A DNA stretch of 58,997 nt, from IMG/VR virus record IMGVR_UViG_3300018080_008436, positions 1-58,997 of that record; one strand, written 5' to 3'. Position numbers and translations under genes: made by a program. Shown here piece by piece: positions 45,334-58,694 of the stretch (position 1 is its first letter; the number at the start of each line of letters is the position of its first letter). A model generated the notes under the pieces. That model was not told the DNA's origin and made no database searches. It saw only the letters and a list, made by a program, of their open reading frames with translations. This DNA is from a virus.

Positions 45334-47364
45334 TCATACCCGAAATGCATTTGCAAGTTCTTGTTCCTCAAGCCATTCATTGAACTTGTGTTCATAACCT
45401 TCAATAATGCTTGACCCCATGCTCTTTTTTGTGATTTGGTATCCACATTCTCTAAAGATTTCAACCATTCTGTCTTGACTGATCTCTTTGGTTTCATTCA
45501 ACTCTTTGGCAACGACTTTGTAGAGATCGGTGTTTTCCTTAAGAAGTCTCATCGCAGTCTTCTTAGACTCTTCGATCAGACTCTCCAACTCTTCATTGGT
45601 CTCTCCTAGAGCCGTATTGTAAGAGCATGAACCGTTGGTTGTCTCTGAGACTACTTTTGATAATGTAGACCCCATAGCGTTCCTCCTAATATATCTAGCG
45701 AGGGCTACGGTTGCATTATCAACATCCAGATAACAACCTGAGGATCTTGACGACTTTCCAAAGACCATTTCTTCTGCACAAAGTCCAGCAAGCCAAACAG
45801 CGCACTGTTTCTTTATATTGTCTTCTGAGTCGATAATTTGATGAGGCATAACATATCCACCCATTTTACCAGAAAGAAGTGAGACAGTATACAATGGAGC
45901 ATGTCCAAAGAGTAATCCATAGACAACTGCATGCCCTGCTTCATGAACTGAAACATGAGTGATGAAATCATACTTTTGGAGCTTTTCCCATTTGATGAAG
46001 TCAATTTCTCCAACATGATTTTTCTCATATGAGAATTTACGACCAGTCAGAACAATCTGCTTATCTTCATAAGAGACCTTAGCCTTTCTGAATTTTTCAC
46101 CAGCGATAAGTGCTTTCAGGATGAGTTCTGTTACACCTGATTCCAGAATGGATTTGATCTCTGAGAAGACTGGTCTTGTCCCTTGAGTTGGATAAACACC
46201 ATTTCTATAGATCAAATCATAGATGGAGTCCTCAATAGTCAGAGTAATTTTAAAATCTTTTTTGATATTCTGTACATACTCATCACATTTCATCTTGATG
46301 ATTGTTCTAAAGTTAGCTTCAGACAATGCAGGATAAATCACATGATTGTTCCCAAGACGAGCAATCTGTTCTGGTAAGAAGACATCCCCCAATGATCTTT
46401 TGATCGTATGGATATTGATGTGTTTGCAAAGTTCATGGTAGTAATCAGCAGGGATGTCATTTCCGAACTGAGTTGAAACATTATAAGCGTTGTCCAAATT
46501 TCCACTTACGAAAACCAACAGCTTACTGTAGTCATGTTCGGTATGAGTGAATTTCTCTTTGTCGTCTTTGAATTCTTTGACCAGATCGATCAGTTTCTCT
46601 TTGGGCCAGTTGGCGATCTCGTAAGCTGACTCAGTCAGTTTGAGTACTCTTTTGATTCTTCTGGCATTGTAAAGACATCCACTTCTGAAGGCATATGAAC
46701 TAAGAGTAGGGGGTTTTGATTCTTCTTCTTCATCATCATCATCTTCATCATCTGTGAGAGGGACCTCACGCTTGTCAAGAATTGTATCAACAAATTTTTT
46801 ACTTGAGCTTTTCTTTGGAATCTTCCCTTCTTTCTGTCTTTCGTTATACTCTTTGAGACGTTTGAGATAGTCCTCATAATCAAGTGTCATCTCATAGAGC
46901 ATGTCGATTGAGACGGTAGATCTGATCTTTCCATCTGAGAGCAGTTCCCAAGTGTCCATATAAGGAAGGTTACGCATCTTGCGTCCAGATTCATCCTTAC
47001 ATCTAAACCGTTGCATTTCGTCAAGCAGAAGGATTCCAGGTTTACCCTCATCGATAACGCCTTCCAGTTTGTCGATGAGCATTTTGGATGCAAGTGAGGA
47101 CTCATCGAATGTAACTTCGCAATAGTCCTCTTTCATATGAAGAAGGTCTCTGAGTGTTCTGACCAGATCTGTTTTACCAACCCCAGTCATACCCCAGAGA
47201 CAAATGATAGTAGGATGGTTGACGATCTCAGGTACGCAGTACCATGCCTCCATCTCACTAATGATTCTATCTATAACCTCGTCTAACCCAACAAACTTTT
47301 TCTTGAGTTCTTCGCCTGCGTTAGCGAGTTCGTTTTTTCTTTTCTCAATAACTTTGAGGTCCAT
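45334..47364 (-). CDS. Clp-type AAA+ ATPase fused to an FtsH-type M41 zinc metallopeptidase
   Basis: 676 residues. N-terminal AAA+ domain: Walker A GMTGVGKT (58-65), Walker B ILLLDEM (111-117), an acidic low-complexity insert (~200-220), sensor-like LLVFVSGNLDNAY (~282-293), and a Clp/Hsp100-style small domain (PEQIARLGNNHVIYPALSEA; GVYPTQGTRPVFSEIK, cf. YGARPL). C-terminal M41-like peptidase: HEAGH at 474-478 and a third ligand candidate Asp547 in GCYLDVDNATVALARYI. No membrane span, unlike FtsH. Expected: an ATP-driven soluble protease that unfolds and degrades host or phage proteins. The pairing of a Clp-like motor with an M41 peptidase is unusual. Ribosome site AAGGAATTATATAC. Confidence 0.85.
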   Translation of the reverse strand: MDLKVIEKRKNELANAGEELKKKFVGLDEVIDRIISEMEAWYCVPEIVNHPTIICLWGMTGVGKTDLVRTLRDLLHMKEDYCEVTFDESSLASKMLIDKLEGVIDEGKPGILLLDEMQRFRCKDESGRKMRNLPYMDTWELLSDGKIRSTVSIDMLYEMTLDYEDYLKRLKEYNERQKEGKIPKKSSSKKFVDTILDKREVPLTDDEDDDDEEEESKPPTLSSYAFRSGCLYNARRIKRVLKLTESAYEIANWPKEKLIDLVKEFKDDKEKFTHTEHDYSKLLVFVSGNLDNAYNVSTQFGNDIPADYYHELCKHINIHTIKRSLGDVFLPEQIARLGNNHVIYPALSEANFRTIIKMKCDEYVQNIKKDFKITLTIEDSIYDLIYRNGVYPTQGTRPVFSEIKSILESGVTELILKALIAGEKFRKAKVSYEDKQIVLTGRKFSYEKNHVGEIDFIKWEKLQKYDFITHVSVHEAGHAVVYGLLFGHAPLYTVSLLSGKMGGYVMPHQIIDSEDNIKKQCAVWLAGLCAEEMVFGKSSRSSGCYLDVDNATVALARYIRRNAMGSTLSKVVSETTNGSCSYNTALGETNEELESLIEESKKTAMRLLKENTDLYKVVAKELNETKEISQDRMVEIFRECGYQITKKSMGSSIIEGYEHKFNEWLEEQELANAFRV

Positions 47365-47376
47365 GTATATAATTCC

Positions 47377-47613
47377 TTATTCGAAGCGGATTTTACTTTT
47401 CTTTCTAGTATGGCCACAAGCAGGACAAGTTTCTTCGTCGTTTAGCTCCTTTAGTTCACTTAGGTCTGGTTGATTAACAACTCTTTTCGGGAGGTCACTT
47501 GATGGGACATCATTACAGATGGCAACTTTGTCGCAAATTTCGCATTTTCCTTTACTGGTCATGAATGATGCAGGCCAGTCTTTTTCTCTTCGACAATCCT
47601 CGCAGTAAAACAT
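47377..47613 (-). CDS. Double zinc-ribbon small protein
   Basis: 78 residues: MFYCEDCRREKDWPASFMTS then KGKCEICDKVAICND and, near the end, CPACGHTRKKSKIRFE. Three CxxC pairs, so one complete ribbon plus a third knuckle. Immediately upstream of the protease gene; could be an adaptor, but nothing shows this. Ribosome site AAGGAGGGAAC. Confidence 0.7.
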   Translation of the reverse strand: MFYCEDCRREKDWPASFMTSKGKCEICDKVAICNDVPSSDLPKRVVNQPDLSELKELNDEETCPACGHTRKKSKIRFE

Positions 47614-47880: not shown

Positions 47881-48254
47881 TTTATGACCTTAAAAAATGG
47901 GGTTACTTTGACAAAGACTTCCTCATCATCTGCTGGCAAACTCAGCCATCCAGCACATAATGAATCTGAGTACAGTTCCCAGAGTCTTTGGGCTTGTGAT
48001 TCTGTAATCGTAATTCCTTTTTCATCAAAGATACTCATGATGCGAGAGATATCTTTGTCATCAGTGTAGAACCTCTGTCTTTTGCTCTTGTTTATTTCAA
48101 TCTTTACAAGAGGTTGACTGTTGGTCAAAATATCAATCTCGCTATCTCCGCACTTACAATCTGGCAATTCATCGTATGGAATGCATGGAGATGAGAAATC
48201 CCCTGCCAGGGACAACCTAATATCTTCGTATTGCCGTCTTGTTATTTTCTTCAT
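47877..48254 (-). CDS. Hypothetical protein
   Basis: 125 residues: MKKITRRQYEDIRLSLAGDF, CKCGDSEIDILTNSQ, KSKRQRFYTDDKDISRIMSI and a C-terminal helix ITESQAQRLWELYSDSLCAG. Unrecognised; ATGA overlaps at both ends. Confidence 0.7.
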   Translation of the reverse strand: MKKITRRQYEDIRLSLAGDFSSPCIPYDELPDCKCGDSEIDILTNSQPLVKIEINKSKRQRFYTDDKDISRIMSIFDEKGITITESQAQRLWELYSDSLCAGWLSLPADDEEVFVKVTPFFKVIK

Positions 48255-49000
48255 CGTTCTTCTTTGTTTGTAATGATTGAGATTGGTGTTTCTTCATCCT
48301 CATCTTCTAGGGGTATAAGCTTCAACCTTCTTCTAATCTCATCAGTGTTTAATAGCTGGGCCTTGTTGCCTTGAGTCACAAGGAAATCAAACCAAGATAT
48401 TTTATCATAGAACTCATCTACTACATCAGCACCAATATTTTTATTATTAGAAAGACGAAGCCAATTAATCTTGTCCTGAAATTCTCTAATGAACTCAACG
48501 CTGAGTGTCTGACTAGATGAGATCATCCCCCAGTCCAGTTTTTCATGGTATTTGCGCATTAAGTCTTCGCCCATTTTTTGATATCGACTTGCACACTTCC
48601 AATCAATTCTTTTACTGAATTTGTCCATGAACTCATCACTAAGCTCTTGGTAATTTACAATACTGTACCAAGCCATTTTTTCTTTGTTCTCTTCGATGAA
48701 CCTCTCGCTCAAAATCTGATAACGACATATGATCCAAAATTCATCGTCCCCCAAAGAATCTTTAACTTTATCGAGTAATTCCTCTGAGACTTTATTATTC
48801 TTAAGAACAGTAGGAAGATTAAGGTGATCCAGGAACTCAATGATAAATTCCTCACTCAGCTTAAGCAGACTGATATGCTTCCAATGAACTTTTTCAATGA
48901 ACTTCTTAATGTCCTTTTTGCGGAGCTTTGTTTTCCTGTAACTCCACAGTCCCTTTTGGTTACCAAGTTCAAGTATTTCATTTTTGAGTTTTCTTTTCAT
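48251..49000 (-). CDS. Helical repeat protein (LSEEFI...W repeats)
   Basis: 249 residues made of five or six repeats of about 33 residues: LLKLSEEFIIEFLDHLNLPT, YQILSERFIEENKEKMAWYS, YQELSDEFMDKFSKRIDWKC, YQKMGEDLMRKYHEKLDWGM, SQTLSVEFIREFQDKINWLR. The pattern x-Q-x-LSxEFIxExxxKxxW should form a two-helix solenoid that binds partners. Such repeats occur in large phages and giant viruses; no enzyme domain. A good scaffold or inhibitor candidate. Confidence 0.75.
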   Translation of the reverse strand: MKRKLKNEILELGNQKGLWSYRKTKLRKKDIKKFIEKVHWKHISLLKLSEEFIIEFLDHLNLPTVLKNNKVSEELLDKVKDSLGDDEFWIICRYQILSERFIEENKEKMAWYSIVNYQELSDEFMDKFSKRIDWKCASRYQKMGEDLMRKYHEKLDWGMISSSQTLSVEFIREFQDKINWLRLSNNKNIGADVVDEFYDKISWFDFLVTQGNKAQLLNTDEIRRRLKLIPLEDEDEETPISIITNKEER

Positions 49001-57036: not shown

Positions 57037-57687
57037 TTATTCTTCGACAACGTCAATATGATCGCCTTTGGCTGAATTACAATGCTGACACATAGTTTGC
57101 ATGTTACTAAGACAGTCCTTACCGCCCTTTGATCTTGGCATGATATGATCTTTTGTAATCAAAACCTTTTCACCATCCTTCATGCCATAAAGATTGAAAT
57201 GCCATCTATTGTCGCCTGGGTTTTTAACCTTCAAGAAGAACGTTCCTTCCAGACCGCAGATGGTACAGACACAACCTTTCTCTTTGAACGTCCTGAGTCT
57301 CAAGGAATTCATTTTGATGTCATCACCATCAAACTCTTTGAGTTGTGGTTTCATGCCATATCGTTTCTTGACATGTTGAAGAACCTCATCAACTGAGTAC
57401 TTCTTTTCACCATACAAAATTCTTGAAGGTTTCTTCTTATTCTGTCTCTTTCTTCTTTGGGTCTTCGAAGGGGTGCTGAATCCTTTTGACGAAACCGTAA
57501 AAAGATATGTGCCTCGGTTGTCGATGATTTTGATATTGAAACCTTGCTCCAAAACAAATGCACCAACAGCATTCAGCATGATCTCATTAGTCCAATTGTC
57601 GAAAAACATCCCACTTTTCCAACCGAAGTCATCGAAAGCTTCTTGAACCTTTTTATCCCCCTGTTTACAAATTACTCTAACTCTCAT
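57037..57687 (-). CDS. HNH endonuclease
   Basis: 216 residues from the ATG at 57687. C-terminal HNH domain: KDHIMPRSKGGKDCLSNMQT (Asp180, His181, Asn195) and CQHCNSAKGDH, with two structural CxxC pairs (CTIC at 141-144, CQHC at 200-203). The N-terminal ~100 residues are a basic DNA-binding-like part (PSKTQRRKRQNKKKPSRI). Probably a homing-type or site-specific nuclease. Ribosome site is weak because the gene follows the Nudix stop closely. Confidence 0.85.
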   Translation of the reverse strand: MRVRVICKQGDKKVQEAFDDFGWKSGMFFDNWTNEIMLNAVGAFVLEQGFNIKIIDNRGTYLFTVSSKGFSTPSKTQRRKRQNKKKPSRILYGEKKYSVDEVLQHVKKRYGMKPQLKEFDGDDIKMNSLRLRTFKEKGCVCTICGLEGTFFLKVKNPGDNRWHFNLYGMKDGEKVLITKDHIMPRSKGGKDCLSNMQTMCQHCNSAKGDHIDVVEE

Positions 57688-57688
57688 A

Positions 57689-58153
57689 TCAGGCATAAGT
57701 CTCCATCTTAAGCACTTCCAATGCTTTTCTGAGTGCTCCCATAACAGGAACATCAATGTTGTCAATATCGAACCATTTCAGTTCTGAGCACTTATCGTGC
57801 TCCATGATATTCGGAACTCCCCGCCAATCTGTTGCTTTGAAGAAGAGAGTGATGTAATGAAGACCTTCTTTTTCGAAGATGACATTCTCGAAGCAAACCT
57901 TCTTTATGTTGATCAGATCGACTCCGATCTCTTCTTTGACTTCTCTCTGGCAACAGGTCAGGAAGTCTTCTCCAATGTCCATATGTCCACCAGGGCAGGC
58001 CCATTTCTCTGACTGGTGAGATCCTTTCCTCTTCATTAGAAGGATCTTTCTGACATGATAGGGGTCATGTTGGACATGGTGTATGAACATGATACCAACT
58101 CCAACCTTGGGGGTATCCTGTTTCTTCTTCATCGGACTGAAATCAACGCTCAT
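57689..58153 (-). CDS. Nudix hydrolase
   Basis: 154 residues from the ATG at 58153. The Nudix box is exact: Gly56-x5-Glu62-x7-Arg70-Glu71-x2-Glu74-Glu75-x-Gly77 (GGHMDIGEDFLTCCQREVKE). Flanking KWACPGG and WRGVPNIMEHDKCSELKWF fit nucleoside-diphosphate-type hydrolases (nucleotide sugars, NADH, (d)NTPs). Substrate unknown. The stop is followed directly by the HNH gene. Confidence 0.85.
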   Translation of the reverse strand: MSVDFSPMKKKQDTPKVGVGIMFIHHVQHDPYHVRKILLMKRKGSHQSEKWACPGGHMDIGEDFLTCCQREVKEEIGVDLINIKKVCFENVIFEKEGLHYITLFFKATDWRGVPNIMEHDKCSELKWFDIDNIDVPVMGALRKALEVLKMETYA

Positions 58154-58175: not shown

Positions 58176-58694
58176 TTAGCGGTTAATGTAAGAGATTCTT
58201 GTGTCATCACTTATTGTTTTTGGGGAAAGCCAGATCAGTTTGGCACATTCTTCATTGGCCACCTTCACAGCAAGATCAACTACCTCGTCATGGTCGAATG
58301 CCATGTCGTCTGGGTGCAGGTCATCTATTTTGACCCATTCCGCTTTTTGAACCTCTTCTGGATTTACATTTAATTCTGGCTTCTCACTTAAGAGGAAATA
58401 GTACACAACAGTGACATATCTACCTCTTGGGTCTCTCCCCTTAGTGCTGATTGCCCCAGCTTGACCGAACATGACAATCCTTTCGTCATGAGGATGAATA
58501 CCCGTTTCTTCCTGAAGCTCCCTCAATGCAGTATCATCTGTATTGAGATCGGTCTCGTCCAAATGTCCACCAGGAACAGCGTATTTGCCCCTGAAAGGTT
58601 CGTTATTCCGTTTGATCAAAAGAATCTCATCTCCGCAGATTACAACTGCATCTGCTGTGACCGATTGCATCGGCCAATCATAAGTATAGGACAT
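58176..58694 (-). CDS. Nudix hydrolase
   Basis: 172 residues. Box GGHLDETDLNTDDTALRELQ then EETGI (Gly43 to Gly65) with one extra residue in the loop, and Arg58, Glu59, Glu62, Glu63 in place. MQSVTADAVVICGDEILLIK is the standard strand before it. Ribosome site GAAGGAACTATAAC. Second Nudix in tandem; the two differ, so they probably act on different substrates. Confidence 0.85.
   Translation of the reverse strand: MSYTYDWPMQSVTADAVVICGDEILLIKRNNEPFRGKYAVPGGHLDETDLNTDDTALRELQEETGIHPHDERIVMFGQAGAISTKGRDPRGRYVTVVYYFLLSEKPELNVNPEEVQKAEWVKIDDLHPDDMAFDHDEVVDLAVKVANEECAKLIWLSPKTISDDTRISYINR

Follow-up and report, generated by a model that had tools for sequence, protein, structure and literature searches.

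A single minus-strand gene in a huge phage genome encodes what is, judged by the descent of its two halves in sequence, a true chimera: a Clp/Hsp100 D2-type AAA+ module joined to a complete M41 peptidase. The gene lies in the window, the 58,997-nucleotide stretch of DNA analysed here, which belongs to an IMG/VR virus record of 476,248 bp. Because the same hybrid recurs in dozens of huge viral contigs and in several bacterial groups, the Clp-M41 protein (as it is called here) is not a phage oddity, and represents a real, widespread, and apparently undescribed enzyme family. It is likely, with a probability of about two in three, that this family consists of soluble, self-contained, hexameric, ATP-dependent zinc proteases; here, we infer the hexamer, the dependence on ATP, the threading, and the substrates.

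The open reading frame, supported by the ORF list, Pfam, and full-length homologues, runs from its ATG at 47364 to 45334 and specifies 676 amino acids; AAGGA, a possible ribosome binding site, stands 9 nucleotides before the ATG (47374-47378). All features given here are on the minus strand. The reading frame begins at the AAA+ module itself, and an N-terminal membrane anchor is absent. Residues 1-339 (46348-47364) form the AAA+ large domain, insert included, as delimited by profile scores, a structure model, and Foldseek. The family alignment places within it Walker A (GMTGVGKT, residues 58-65, 47170-47193), Walker B (ILLLDE, residues 111-116, 47017-47034), the sensor 1 residue N289 (46498-46500), and a candidate arginine finger, R336 in FLPEQIAR (46357-46359). 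A small domain of the ClpB D2 type follows (residues 340-426, 46087-46347; Pfam, alignment, and profile scores), with the sensor 2 arginine R397 falling within GVYPTQGTRPVF. A linker modelled as a beta-hairpin and helix (residues 427-464, 45973-46086) then leads to the M41 domain (residues 465-640, 45445-45972), which is also supported by Pfam, alignment, and profile scores. This holds the zinc motif HEAGH (residues 474-478, 45931-45945) and D547 (45724-45726), which in the alignment of GCYLDVDNAT is the counterpart of the third zinc ligand of FtsH. Thus, the hallmarks of an AAA+ protease (Walker A and B, sensors, arginine finger, and protease site) are all intact.

Pfam recognizes the two ends of this arrangement above its cut-offs, with Peptidase_M41 on residues 470-636 (E 1e-14) and ClpB_D2-small (PF10431) on residues 347-421 (E 3e-7); between them lie only weak, generic AAA matches. 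The preliminary description, made from the window alone, had seen no membrane helix, and none is found: the highest hydropathy over 19 residues is 1.49, within a helix of the M41 domain. No other M41 protein is encoded in the 476,248-bp record. The gene sits in a run of ORFs on the same strand, and none of the ten neighbours tested has a Pfam match above cut-off. Elsewhere in the window, also on the minus strand, are genes for a 249-residue repeat-like protein of unknown function (48251-49000; phrog_3532, E 4e-41), an HNH endonuclease (57037-57765), and a MutT/NUDIX hydrolase (58176-58694).

The ancestry of the two halves was examined with separate profiles for the AAA part (residues 1-426) and the M41 part (residues 455-645), scored against ClpB, ClpA, ClpX, Lon, HslU, and FtsH from E. 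coli and against the phage's ClpA-like protein. The AAA profile gave 61.6 bits with ClpB, 47.1 with ClpA, 36.8 with the phage ClpA-like protein, 25.1 with Lon, 21.8 with ClpX, 18.3 with HslU, and only 7.0 with FtsH. The M41 profile, conversely, gave 99.9 bits with FtsH and less than 1 with every other protein. This agrees with the earlier proposal that a motor of the Clp type, not the FtsH type, carries an FtsH-like peptidase. A profile search of the PDB divides in the same way. Its M41 columns match FtsH, Yme1, and AFG3L2, its AAA columns match ClpC, ClpE, ClpB, and Hsp104, and among the solved chains listed, none matched across both parts. An AlphaFold model (pLDDT 79) used as a Foldseek query finds both FtsH and the second nucleotide-binding domain of ClpB, at E values of about 1e-9 to 1e-10. 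No single family model spanning the whole protein was found, and the NCBIfam model for FtsH scores it at 53.9 bits against a cut-off of 600.

Relatives were not found with the single sequence, whose scan of IMG/VR came back empty. This reflects divergence (identity is at most about 38%) rather than absence, since an alignment anchored on the M41 domain then delivered 22 full-length relatives from the same database; a wider M41 alignment offered no usable conserved stretch. A 19-sequence family alignment built from those relatives served as the query for wider searches. In IMG/VR it identified 77 viral loci, often on contigs 150-550 kb long, and in GTDB genomes it identified 384 loci, of which the best 80 were retained. 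The distinct full-length viral relatives number 64, mostly on large contigs, so that conservation could be assessed over 144 unique members (64 viral, and 80 bacterial from the best 80 of 384 loci). Members score at least 344 bits with the family model and ordinary FtsH at most 107, which leaves a clean gap. Three family queries, run at the sensitivity chosen here, yielded no full-length member from either 50,697 named phage records or 72,556 plasmids. One plasmid match (H2), from Ensifer adhaerens, resembled a Clp-M41 protein at first but was rejected as a member; it is a classical AAA plus M41 protein of 619 residues with no obvious membrane anchor by eye (L002, 3894-5753, plus strand), and so is itself an uncommon M41 protein.

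The residues H474, E475, H478, D547, N289, R336, and R397 are invariant in all 144 members, Walker A and B are nearly so, and Pfam detects M41 in 19 of 19 family members. That 144 distinct relatives retain these residues means that the fusion is not a product of chance. Each relative carries both halves in a single ORF, which rules out a frameshift fusion or an accidental juxtaposition, and the invariance of every zinc residue rules out a pseudo-protease. It also settles the matter of a proper third metal ligand after HEAGH, which the preliminary description had expected; D547 occupies that place throughout.

That description had, however, suggested that the protein is specific to phages, and this was wrong. 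The full-length protein is chromosomal in Burkholderiales, in Bacteroidota, and in some Cyanobacteria. In Burkholderiales, its gene occupies a fixed locus between hrpA and argA. In Flectobacillaceae, it precedes a gene that, read by eye, we take to be hflX; the genes that flank it in Chamaesiphon are presumed, likewise by eye, to be fabH and fabD. These bacterial genomes also encode an ordinary FtsH. The gene was found in 19 of 201 genomes of the Acidovorax family, 5 of 297 from Bacteroidota, 1 of 244 from Cyanobacteriota, and 1 of 349 from Pseudomonadota, the single match in each of the last two samples being the seed genome itself. Two Bacteroidota orders, searched with a closer alignment, gave 19 of 322 and 10 of 328 genomes. 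All these counts are lower bounds, because only a small number of candidates in each genome was scored in the initial look. A few contigs may carry the wrong label. One listed as bacterial (L161, JAKPTO010000038.1), whose Clp-M41 protein is 72% identical to viral members, is probably a phage contig binned into a metagenome-assembled genome of about 1 Mb. Conversely, two short IMG/VR contigs, L102, which falls within the Burkholderiales clade, and its near copy L103, are possibly bacterial fragments misclassified as viral.

In a tree of M41 domains, the family stands apart from FtsH with 100% SH-aLRT support; the exception is a classical AAA-M41 protein on a long branch. Viral and bacterial branches are intermixed, with a minimum of 6-7 changes from one kind to the other, and the window protein joins three more viral members, with weak support only, close to the Bacteroidota and Cyanobacteria lineage. 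The deep forks are weak, so the tree gives no direction of transfer. An earlier impression, that the viral tree encloses the bacterial copies in just two clades, was rejected as an effect of sampling from the best-80 list, since at least one additional lineage appears when more Bacteroidota members are included. Across the 77 viral loci, no conserved neighbour of the gene was found. An obligate partner operon in phages was therefore rejected, and the protein can be taken to act without an obligate genetic partner.

The motor departs from its relatives at the pore. The pore-loop-1 motif [FY][VIL]G, as in GYVG or FVG, is absent from 143 of 143 members, in which the region from strand 2 to Walker B is short. 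A looser scan for an aromatic-x-G is positive in only 8 of 139 members, yet it picks up ClpA, ClpB, ClpX, Lon, HslU, E. coli FtsH, and 46 of 46 viral FtsH proteins. In 127 of 143 members (80/80 bacterial, 47/63 viral), the loop does contain an aromatic residue at some position; the window protein's own loop, after the strand in VTFDESSLASKM, has none.

A second departure lies further along the same domain. From the LLSDG segment to sensor 1 there are 91-192 residues in every member (143 in the window protein), compared with about 20 in ClpA and ClpB, so that some 75-170 residues are extra across members. In the window protein the insert comprises residues 148-271 (46552-46923, minus strand; model and alignment) and is flanked in the AlphaFold model by strands 146-152 and 272-278. 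In our own reading of that model, it would sit at the tip of the pre-sensor-1 hairpin, which is the pore-loop-2 position. It contains an acidic low-complexity stretch and is predicted to be partly disordered, with residues 183-222 below a pLDDT of 50. A ClpP-type IGF/L loop appears in the expected region in only 2 of 144 members, a chance-like frequency, and not in the window protein. Thus, a separate peptidase is not expected, and a ClpP-dependent unfoldase was rejected for want of a docking loop.

How might such a protein work? In the reading we prefer, the D2-type AAA+ modules would assemble into a homohexameric ring stacked directly on a ring of M41 peptidases, so that one cytosolic polypeptide would do the work of ClpA or ClpC with ClpP, or of membrane-anchored FtsH. 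Movement of the AAA+ ring, driven by ATP, would deliver chosen polypeptides into the M41 chamber, where H474, H478, and D547 would hold zinc and E475 would activate water. We suppose, on the model of FtsH and Clp, that the substrate chain is threaded. The missing GYVG/FVG motif speaks most strongly against this; together with the large insert at the pore-loop-2 position, that absence suggests that gripping and selection probably fall to the insert or the shortened loop 1, and that the substrates are probably narrow. In the phage, the protein would most likely remove particular host or phage proteins during infection. Without threading, it might instead be an ATP-gated, site-specific protease resembling Torsins, in which the binding of ATP positions or remodels a folded partner that the M41 domain then cuts once or a few times. 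Aromatic pore loops are missing from Torsins too, and these proteins are not regarded as processive unfoldases (PMC5425593). Three family members match the Pfam Torsin model (best E 1.5e-6), and the canonical motif missing throughout the family, in a scan that finds it in Clp, HslU, Lon, and FtsH, and the large insert in all members point the same way. Slow, cofactor-dependent ATPases, however, would not be expected to hold the arginine finger and both sensors invariant and Walker B nearly so, most members do keep an aromatic residue somewhere in the loop, and the M41 domain of FtsH is fed by threading. We rate clipping of this kind as a serious rival, but an unlikely one.

That alternative concerns mechanism. 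Two others concern biological role, and so the rivals are not all exclusive. One of these begins with three distant Bacteroidota members, in each of which a WYL+WCX regulator adjoins the Clp-M41 gene. In one (L261), a GmrSD restriction gene lies 4 bp downstream (PADLOC HEC-06, E 2e-45); in another (L263), a PDC-S26 nuclease gene adjoins it. After 20 further regions were added, a WYL homologue was seen in 11 of 23 new Bacteroidota loci, 10 of them within 3 kb. The 67 bacterial loci gathered earlier and the 75 viral loci had none. The counting model had been trained on the three initial loci, and some of the loci are not independent of one another. In the tree, one clade of 12 rows has WYL in 10 of them. 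These WYL-near genes (L261, L262, L263, L295, L299, L301, L303, and L306-L309) form a candidate defence-island module. Paralogues of 447-450 residues with the AAA part alone, lacking M41 and HExxH, accompany this lineage in L302 (7492-8835, minus) and L303 (8979-10331, minus), the latter about 600 bp from the Clp-M41 gene that adjoins the WYL regulator.

The protein might then be an enzyme of conflict, that is, a WYL-regulated defence-island protease in Bacteroidota or a controller of nearby restriction enzymes, with phage copies captured for removing host defences or for competition between phages. The WYL counts, the two adjoining nuclease genes, and the interleaving of viral and bacterial members all favour this, and there is a precedent in the degradation of restriction complexes by ClpXP in E. 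coli, as given in the accessible part of PMC11109961. The association with defence genes recurs, however, in one Bacteroidota lineage, whereas neither the viruses nor two further bacterial lineages show it. The hrpA-argA and presumed fabH-fabD lineages live in fixed housekeeping neighbourhoods without defence genes, the viral copies have no defence-like partner, and the whole protein has no PADLOC entry, its AAA part matching DolB and PDC-M37B only weakly. We regard a role in conflict as unlikely. The other alternative, which we rate as somewhat unlikely, is an accessory to proteostasis, serving protein quality or the maturation of virion proteins during a long infection. The same 476-kb genome has, outside the window, two ClpP genes (188671-189207, minus, and 466633-467154, plus; 269 and 178 bits) and, at about 320.5-323.9 kb, two overlapping genes, one for a 770-residue ClpA-like ATPase whose D2 domain carries an MGF loop and one for a DnaJ (L005, 1171-3483 and 116-1174 respectively, both minus). 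With that pair, the phage may have a ClpAP-type system of its own. So heavy an investment in quality control makes proteostasis a serious alternative to the attack on host proteins that the preliminary description had put forward as possible; jumbo phages are recorded to carry ClpP, ClpA, and ClpX (PMC7824862, in its accessible part), and the bacterial loci are core chromosomal ones. General housekeeping is not, however, expected to be distributed as patchily as the bacterial genome counts are, and the hosts already have FtsH. The broadest view would join several of these elements into an unrecognised class of soluble AAA+ proteases with a motor-peptidase pairing of its own and a non-canonical pore, which huge phages and bacteria would have exchanged many times over and would use in conflict, under WYL control in Bacteroidota defence islands and as weapon or counter-weapon in huge phages. 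This, too, we hold to be improbable.

The self-contained protease that we prefer resembles several known systems in part. Like FtsH, Yme1, and AFG3L2, it has M41, with HExxH and a third aspartate ligand, C-terminal to AAA+ on one chain; unlike FtsH, its AAA+ module is of the Clp D2 type, and it has neither membrane anchor nor FVG motif. With the second ATPase domain of ClpB, ClpA, and ClpC it shares a large domain and a D2-small domain with the sensor 2 GxRP. Unlike Hsp100 proteins, it would have a single AAA+ ring, and it has no N domain, no GYVG, and no ClpP loop, but a large pre-sensor-1 hairpin insert and a protease on the same chain. Lon likewise places motor and protease on one soluble chain; its protease is a Ser-Lys peptidase, not M41, and its AAA similarity is weaker, at 25 bits. 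Torsins share a Clp/Hsp100-derived AAA+ domain without the canonical pore loop, as the weak Pfam matches also suggest, but are ER proteins that require cofactors and have no protease (PMC5425593).

Jumbo phages also encode AAA+ proteolysis parts, ClpP, ClpA, ClpX, and ClpS, according to the accessible part of the survey by Iyer et al. (PMC7824862); these, however, are two-protein systems. That survey lists ClpP, ClpS, ClpA, ClpX, and MoxR, the word FtsH does not occur in it, and its accessible part describes no M41 fusion; the accessible part of a review of FtsH evolution treats only membrane-anchored FtsH (PMC9020784). No description of the fusion was found in the open-access literature. The earlier suspicion that this is no standard pairing for a protease is thus consistent with the accessible parts of both reviews and with the lack of a whole-protein family model. 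What is new, within the known AAA+ proteases, is a domain pairing and a distribution that are apparently undescribed, together with a possible role in phage-host conflict.

The Clp-M41 protein would add a further arrangement to the AAA+ proteases, one that is widespread although no family model is dedicated to it. Since cultivable Acidovorax, Variovorax, and Flectobacillus carry it as a single gene, its function can be studied without the phage. Further, the absence of the standard gripping motif from its motor offers a direct way to test the rule that ATP-driven proteolysis requires aromatic pore loops.
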